DNA from: Flavobacteriales bacterium
GTDB taxonomy: Bacteria > Bacteroidota > Bacteroidia > CAIKAF01
Assembly (NCBI GenBank): GCA_025451235.1
Contig: JANWKT010000017.1
Coordinates: 124,001 to 188,000, forward strand
Reading direction: 5' to 3'
Length of the DNA stretch: 64,000 nucleotides
Shown here: positions 32,683 through 52,716 of the stretch, in pieces
How the letters are laid out: each line of letters begins with the position of its first letter
Position numbering within the stretch: position 1 is the stretch's first letter
Position numbers and translations under genes: made by a program
Notes under the pieces: model-generated
The model's database searches: none
What the model was told of the DNA's origin: nothing
What the model saw: the letters and a program-made list of their open reading frames with translations, nothing else

Positions 32683-33237
32683 ATGCGAAAATTTACCATT
32701 TTATTAATTGTCTCGGCCCTGCTGGTCCTTACGAAAAAAGCAGAAGCCAGGAACCTTTGGGAAGGCAATCAGGGTCCTAAGTTTACCATTACCAGTGGAT
32801 CTCTTCATGTAAATGGGTCCAAGTTCGGGCAACCATGGAAGATCAACCCCTTTTTAACCGCTGTGGGAGGGAAATATGTTACCAAGCACCTATTTCATAA
32901 GGTATATACTTTCGATGACCTGGGGATCCATGTATATGAATATCCTAAAAGAGAAGAGGCGAATGAGATCCAGGTGTCTTTTATCAGGCAGAATTTAAAA
33001 TTTGCCCCAAAAACCAACTTTAATGGCGTCTTTAAGATCGAGAAAACACCAATCACCAGGAAAACAAGCATTCAAAAGGTAATCAAGTCGTTACCAGTTT
33101 ATAATTTCACCAAAGGATTGAAAGGGAACTTTTACAGAGGGGAGTATAAGGGAGTATATGTTTATCTCAACTATTCCGATAACTCATTCAAGTTTTTAGA
33201 CTTTATCTCTTTTGGGATGAGTGGAAAAGTAAAATAA
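32683..33237 (+). CDS. Hypothetical secreted protein
   Basis: 184 aa with N-terminal signal peptide; intact ORF after scoA. Confidence 0.7.
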   Translation: MRKFTILLIVSALLVLTKKAEARNLWEGNQGPKFTITSGSLHVNGSKFGQPWKINPFLTAVGGKYVTKHLFHKVYTFDDLGIHVYEYPKREEANEIQVSFIRQNLKFAPKTNFNGVFKIEKTPITRKTSIQKVIKSLPVYNFTKGLKGNFYRGEYKGVYVYLNYSDNSFKFLDFISFGMSGKVK

Positions 33238-51991: not shown

Positions 51992-52033
51992 AAAGTCCCG
52001 TTATTGTGTTCTCAACGGGACTTTGTTTTTTTC
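51992..52033 (+). terminator. Intrinsic terminator
   Basis: AAAGTCCCGTT...AACGGGACTTT perfect 11-bp stem followed by GTTTTTTTC. Confidence 0.9.
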
Positions 52034-52511
52034 AATATTTCACCTTATTCCCTTTTTCCTTCCAGGCTTTAAAAATCTTGAATGCCTCTTTCCTGTTATA
52101 CTGATAAATAGGAATTTTTCTTTCACCCATTGGGAGTTCCAGTTCTTTATAAATAAAATCATCATCGAATTCAAATGCTGCAGCATCCTGGCGGGTACAG
52201 CCATAATATACCTTTAATGGCCTGGCCCAGTAAATGGCACCTAAACACATGGGGCATGGTTCACAGGAGGTATAAATGATGCAATTATCCAACTGGAAAC
52301 AATTCAGTTGTTTACAGGCTTCCCTGATAGCTACTACCTCCGCATGTGCTGTAGGGTCGTTATCGGAGGTAACTCTGTTATTTCCTTTACCCACCACTTC
52401 TCCATCCTTTACAATTACACATCCAAAGGGACCACCCTCATTGTTATTCATCCCCTGCATGGCCAAATCAATGGCCATTTGCATAAATATTTCGTGTTGT
52501 TCTACATCCAT
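52032..52511 (-). CDS. Nucleoside deaminase (guanine/tRNA-adenosine deaminase-like)
   Basis: DPTAHAEVVAIREACKQL and YTSCEPCPMCLGAIYWA zinc motifs. Confidence 0.92.
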   Translation of the reverse strand: MDVEQHEIFMQMAIDLAMQGMNNNEGGPFGCVIVKDGEVVGKGNNRVTSDNDPTAHAEVVAIREACKQLNCFQLDNCIIYTSCEPCPMCLGAIYWARPLKVYYGCTRQDAAAFEFDDDFIYKELELPMGERKIPIYQYNRKEAFKIFKAWKEKGNKVKY

Positions 52512-52568: not shown

Positions 52569-52716
52569 GGCATTTAGAAAACTCGGATATCGTGGCGGGC
52601 AAGAAATTTAAACACGATTTTACTGGAAGTAAATAGGATACGATATGAATAAAGATTTTATCCCCAGTGGTTAAATTTTGAAGTCCAACGAAGATAGGTG
52701 AGAATTTCTAAATGCC
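52569..52716 (+). ncRNA. Structured intergenic element, copy A (candidate RNA or mobile palindromic element)
   Basis: Terminal stem GGCATTTAGAAA/TTTCTAAATGCC; core GGCGGGC-N18-TTTA..TAAAT..GAAGTCCAACGA shared with 60281-60404. Confidence 0.65.

Follow-up and report, generated by a model that had tools for sequence, protein, structure and literature searches.

Two hairpin-like elements with a common core are found within the window, by which we mean the whole stretch of 64,000 nucleotides of Flavobacteriales DNA that was analysed here, and they raise the question of what kind of element they are and how their arms can change in sequence while staying paired. The features of both elements, designated copies A and B, are listed in Table 1. 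As claimed in a preliminary description of this DNA, copy A is closed by a perfect terminal stem of 12 bp and a second hairpin with the same core is present as copy B, the outer stem of which is longer with 18 bp (60280-60297/60388-60405). Both are long imperfect hairpins, each in a gap between minus-strand genes: copy A is neighboured by a nucleoside deaminase gene (52032-52511) and a gene of unknown kind, copy B by a DUF502 gene (59543-60223) and a short-chain dehydrogenase gene (60413-61216). Compared with dinucleotide shuffles, the folds have z values of -5.00 (copy A) and -4.36 (copy B), with 0 of 200 shuffles as good in either case. The stretches between arms and core, for which similar lengths in both copies had been noted, are conserved and paired themselves (AAAGAATTTC...GAAATTCGAAG), i.e. 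they are not spacers. The extra ~30 nt that had been noted in copy A turned out to be an insertion in this copy only, absent from its ortholog in a sister species (L134). The exact pattern of the two core boxes occurs at two places in the 4.28-Mb genome, namely copies A and B, and the reversed control of this pattern yielded no match in the same genome.

Table 1. Positions of the features of copies A and B within the window.
Feature	Position	Strand	Basis
Copy A, whole element, outer stem to outer stem, 148 nt, degenerate	52569..52716	+	
Copy A, left arm GGCATTTAGAAA (ortholog L134: GGCCTTCATAAA)	52569..52580	+	
Copy A, right arm TTTCTAAATGCC (L134: TTATGAAGGCC, still pairs)	52705..52716	+	
Copy A, left core box GGCGGGC (family consensus AAGGCGG)	52594..52600	+	
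Copy A, apical hairpin TTAC-TGGAA-GTAAAT	52620..52634	+	sequence, fold
Copy A-specific insertion of ~30 nt, GGATA...TATCC, bounds approximate	52636..52664	+	
Copy A, right core box GAAGTCCAACGA	52680..52691	+	
Copy B, whole element, 18-bp outer stem	60280..60405	+	
Copy B, conserved core	60297..60387	+	covariance-model match
Copy B, left core box GGCGGGC	60310..60316	+	
Copy B, apical box CGGAGTTTA...GTAAATGAG (ERIC equivalent GGAGCTTAC...GTAAGTGA)	60330..60352	+	
Copy B, right core box GAAGCCCAACGA	60365..60376	+	

Further copies were uncovered by a search for the right box with one mismatch, and a covariance model (R1) was built on five copies, all of them from this genome. With R1, 13 copies at E-values below 1e-19 were identified in addition to copy A, which gives about 14 copies in this genome. 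Copy B is a typical family member with 101.3 bits in R1 and 79.2 bits in R3, a model from 81 copies, and the greatest degeneracy among the 14 clear copies is seen in copy A (26.7 bits in R1, match 52584-52702). The preliminary description had staked its reading on the existence of further copies in the genome and on their covariation, and in the first respect it held, many more copies having been found. Among relatives, R1 detected 16 copies in the same genus, 32 and 26 copies in two genomes of the same family, and a few copies in members of two further families. In the genus to which the 32- and 26-copy genomes belong, R1 detected no copies in other members, and a looser two-box pattern in 40 relatives gave matches at chance level only. 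In a sample of the own phylum at least 51 of 396 genomes match at E-values up to 1e-5, this being a lower bound as at most ten candidates per genome were scored. At L079 (G000:C8:448081-448515) three core copies follow one another, of which one is inverted and another is truncated, with the right half left. An apparent tRNA-Leu gene follows immediately downstream of the core copy at L077 (2002-2092). A weak R1 match within the window (33111-33193, 19.3 bits) is unsupported by R3 and probably due to chance. In one family of the same phylum with genomes of 2-3 Mb (f57, L369-L397) there are many core copies per genome; in those inspected, the ends are of the GGGCATCTCTAAAAA type and the tip is GTGTAC/GTACAT. 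Among the f57 genomes, G227 contains 16 IS5-type genes.

The fold was assessed over 81 copies from several phyla, in which 95.0% of the cells are standard pairs. As 24 of the 28 pairs have changed on both sides, the structure is real. The covariation score is 0.578 compared to 0.160 in shuffles, where 0 of 500 reach this value; in slid controls the score is never above 0.087. None of the 500 shuffles and none of the slid controls comes up to the copies in any measure. Since the alignment was fitted to the structure, the figure is biased towards the latter, but its distance from the slid controls is nonetheless very large. Thus, the covariation on which the description had relied is strong. The core boxes of the family read AAGGCG...GGAGTTTAC-N4-GTAAATGA...CAACGC, with GGAGTTTAC-N4-GTAAATGA at the tip. 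The conserved boxes are located partly outside the stems (AAGGCG, CGxAG before the tip, TGA after the tip, and CAAC), whereby the conservation at the tip and the left box is in part a matter of sample selection, since outgroup copies were picked by an exact motif there.

How the arms evolve can be followed at orthologous loci. Copy A and L134, the loci of which share 75% nucleotide identity over 1.5 kb, differ in their 12 arm pairs by three double changes with pairing kept and by one break, and a second orthologous pair (L086/L132) shows four double changes and no break, which adds up to seven double changes and one break. If the two sides mutated independently, the probability would be about 0.002 for A/L134 and 0.00005 for L086/L132, and it follows that the arms evolve in place with compensation. 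The description of a repeated structured intergenic element with changing arms and preserved pairing is right. The description had further taken changed sequence with preserved pairing as a sign of selection. Changes and pairing are indeed seen, but preserved pairing need not mean selection, because hairpin-templated mutation could give the same outcome; the compensation may be due to either process and the data fit both. The earlier observation is confirmed, and its interpretation is supported in part. In its strict form, the second process would mean that the arms are kept perfect only by templated mutation at replication forks, with no selection or function, and that the core persists through the recent spread of copies. 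This would be compatible with a MITE and competes with selection on the arm covariation. It would fit that the arms are complementary in nearly every state, that the double substitutions include transversions, and that, at the DNA level, long hairpins are found nested with further small palindromes. However, templated correction leaves unexplained why the unpaired AAGGCG, GGAG, GTAAATGA, and CAAC are conserved across phyla, and the internal loops stay open instead of being closed. We regard this strict form as rather unlikely.

Signs of mobility were found in the relatives. In G011 and G013, which belong to a sister genus, the copies end with GAGACC(T)GTTGA...TCAACGGTCTC and thus have GAGACC...GGTCTC termini. 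Directly outside these termini, exact 5-bp direct repeats are present in 22 of 52 copies (shuffles: mean 0.5, maximum 4); the flank identity in the 52 copies is 0.76 versus 0.31, with k=5 as the sole strong signal. In this lineage, coreless elements with the same ends exist beside the core MITEs. The same holds for G041 from another family, where elements of 139 bp with the core and of 77-87 bp without it have common TTAA-GGGCACTTCTAAAAA ends, so that coreless MITEs with the same ends are known from two lineages. A Y1 transposase gene of a proteobacterial MAG (L246) is interrupted by a core element of 144 bp, the ends of which are AGACTTCTTGCATAACC. This element has ATT on both sides, i.e. a 3-bp duplication, and the joined flanks yield one ORF of 150 codons with a Y1_Tnp domain. 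From the ends in G011/G013, G041, and L246 it can be concluded that the core is carried around by elements whose ends are of no fewer than three kinds. For the copies of this genome, which are older, no clear target duplication was found. The elements are about 120-150 bp in size, have palindromic arms and no transposase ORF, and occur in many dispersed copies (14 in this genome, up to 32 in relatives). The target duplications, the terminal inverted repeats in relatives, and the split gene thus point to a mobile DNA hairpin of the ERIC type, and copies A and B are very probably old insertions of such a non-autonomous element, a MITE of ~120-150 bp from an ERIC-like superfamily. ERIC, the enterobacterial repetitive intergenic consensus, is a repeat of gut bacteria, and we know of no mover for it.

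In this reading, the element consists of two layers, namely outer arms that serve as terminal inverted repeats and an inner core that folds into a long hairpin carrying the three conserved boxes. The arms would be recognised in trans by a DDE transposase, for which the IS5 group is the most likely source: provided by a resident or former IS, this enzyme would bind the ends and place the element, in most cases at an intergenic site, whereby a short stretch of the target would be duplicated, and the copies of this genome would have moved in this way as well. The inserted arms would then stay paired via quasi-palindrome self-repair or hairpin selection, whereby the sequence would drift and the pairing would not. 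A candidate for the mover is encoded in G013, where an IS of 1302 bp (L187 332-1633, G013:C1) has ends (GAGACCGTTGACG...CGTCAACAGTCTC) that match those of the core MITEs of the same genome. Its transposase is of the IS5 family (NF033581, 236.6 bits), whereas the present elements encode no transposase and none such was found in this genome. Since this IS is single-copy, has no target duplication, and is absent from this genome, it can be regarded as a candidate only. An IS5-type gene (PF05598) was found neither in this genome nor in G001, and the G013 transposase is absent from viral contigs and from G011. For the GGGCACCTCTAAAAA ends (G041 and other loci), the sole long pair (L246) encloses a Y1 instead of an IS5 gene, and the ends of a Pseudomonas copy form no pair at IS-like distance in that genome. 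The Y1 gene in question (L246, 4419-5710) is enclosed by GGGCACCTCTAAAAA inverted repeats with TTAA at their flanks, which looks like the capture of a RAYT by a MITE. In G013 (L189-L204), same-end MITEs contain nested small REP-like hairpins (CTGACGCTTCGGTCAG), some of them inside the core.

Y1 genes were also considered with regard to the mover, as the hairpins could be REP-like targets of the IS200-like (Y1) transposases in the same genomes. Y1_Tnp genes are present in six of six element-bearing genomes tested and in neither of two tested family members lacking the element. However, the Y1 genes are flanked by other, short hairpins (~20 nt), at which the core model finds nothing, and REP insertion, to our knowledge, makes no 5-bp duplications. 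RAYT/REP was thus rejected as the mover, and this explanation appears extremely improbable. The IS200-like (Y1/RAYT) genes at L112, L113, L118-L120, and L129 are flanked by REP arrays of ~20 nt that differ from gene to gene. An identity with integron attC sites was dropped on inspection: the AAC box is on the wrong side of the hairpin and the context is not kept in G013.

It was also considered whether the elements constitute a genuine family of structured ncRNAs, trans-acting or cis-regulatory, with many gene copies and selection on the folded RNA. The strong compensatory covariation, the in-place compensation at orthologous loci, and the conservation of unpaired boxes across phyla would fit such a family, although a covarying structure is also expected for a conserved DNA hairpin. 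The preliminary description had implied a new structured RNA of Bacteroidota, which is not borne out. A search of Rfam gave no family match at gathering score and only noise at permissive thresholds, and Flavo-1 (RF01705), which had been proposed for comparison and resembles the elements in being structured and intergenic in Bacteroidota, gave no credible match even at the latter. No conserved neighbour gene was found among the copies, and their orientation to transcription is unbiased (co-directional: 20 sense, 28 antisense; 22 convergent, 20 divergent). The missing orientation bias and common neighbours argue against a fixed regulatory RNA role. Furthermore, the target duplications and the gene-splitting insertion, the very uneven copy numbers among relatives, and the existence of same-end MITEs without the core speak against an RNA family, which we consider very unlikely. 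ERIC has been reported to alter mRNA stability in Yersinia when transcribed (PMC10969869). For MITE insertions such as copies A and B, read-through transcripts would carry a strong hairpin, and local effects on these transcripts are plausible.

In order to relate the core to ERIC, ERICs were fetched from records of E. coli, Klebsiella, Kosakonia, Citrobacter, Proteus, Rahnella, and Salmonella. On E. coli ERICs, R1 matches the tip only (14 bits). With R3, from which the ERIC-type Rahnella copy had been left out, the matches span model positions 1-92 and reach 39.3 and 35.3 bits for Klebsiella, 39.1 and 31.3 for Rahnella, 31.6 for Kosakonia, and 29.2 for Citrobacter (E-values of 3e-7 to 2e-10, which are rough). 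Weaker scores were obtained for E. coli (19-24 bits), Salmonella (19.7), and Proteus (18.3). Among the controls, eight coreless MITE loci gave no score and one unrelated GC-rich hairpin reached 18.2 bits. Because of this hairpin the weaker ERIC scores alone are unconvincing, whereas the stronger ones convince. Judged from these sequence comparisons, the core of the elements is the core of ERIC/IRU, a homologous hairpin. The likeness to ERIC/IRU/RU-1 (127 bp) comprises the order and spacing of the core, AAGGCGGC...GGAGCTTAC-N4-GTAAGTGA...GCCAACGCA, within one long hairpin (PMC2759123), and both kinds of elements are intergenic and multi-copy. They differ in the tip stem (GTTTAC/GTAAAT in the present elements, GCTTAC/GTAAGT in ERIC), in the ends, which are GCACCTCTAAAAAC, GAGACCGTTGA, and AGACTTCTTGCATAACC in the present elements, in length, and in the target duplication, which is TA in ERIC (PMC2759123) and 5 bp or 3 bp in the relatives. 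Because of the differing ends, length, and target duplication, the elements are not ERIC sensu stricto. They represent a new branch of ERIC-like elements, which are themselves a known kind of repeat. The hosts differ as well: a review of MITEs states that ERIC is found in Enterobacteriaceae and Vibrionaceae (PMC10969869), unlike the present elements with their Bacteroidota and mostly non-enteric Pseudomonadota hosts. Open-access papers, searched by sequence and by topic, yielded no description of ERIC-like elements outside Gammaproteobacteria; within that class, ERIC was surveyed in 2011 (cited in PMC10969869). With the same core across Pseudomonadota and Bacteroidota, together with insertions, target duplications, and one IS with matching ends, the origin and mobilisation of ERIC become testable. 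Moreover, these hairpins, the internal loops of which are conserved and the arms free to change, form a natural collection on which selection for structure and hairpin-templated mutation can be told apart.

An exact core pattern was found in at least 120 stretches of the GTDB collection, where about one would be expected by chance according to our own estimate. The matches listed are mainly from Pseudomonas, Halomonas, Salinicola, and Nitrosomonas, and also include Oligoflexia, Bdellovibrio, Desulfuromusa, Bacteroidales, and Flavobacteriales. In Pseudomonas, Halomonas, and Nitrosomonas the core is located within MITEs with different ends. It might be that the core itself is under selection for a function, such as being bound by a conserved factor specific for RNA or ssDNA. 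It would then be an ancient, portable module of nucleic acid that was captured time and again by MITEs unrelated in their ends and target rules, and ERIC would be the best known of its carriers; we consider this idea possible rather than probable. MITE-like Pseudomonas hairpins have been described as R0, R2, and R178 in P. fluorescens, whereby the ends of R0 and R2 are common to resident IS elements (PMC2718517). R178 is 101 bp long with an internal inverted repeat (PMC2718517). These repeats resemble the Pseudomonas core elements in being MITE-like hairpins. In Rahnella bruchi (L282), one ERIC-type and one Pseudomonas-type copy are present in the same species.
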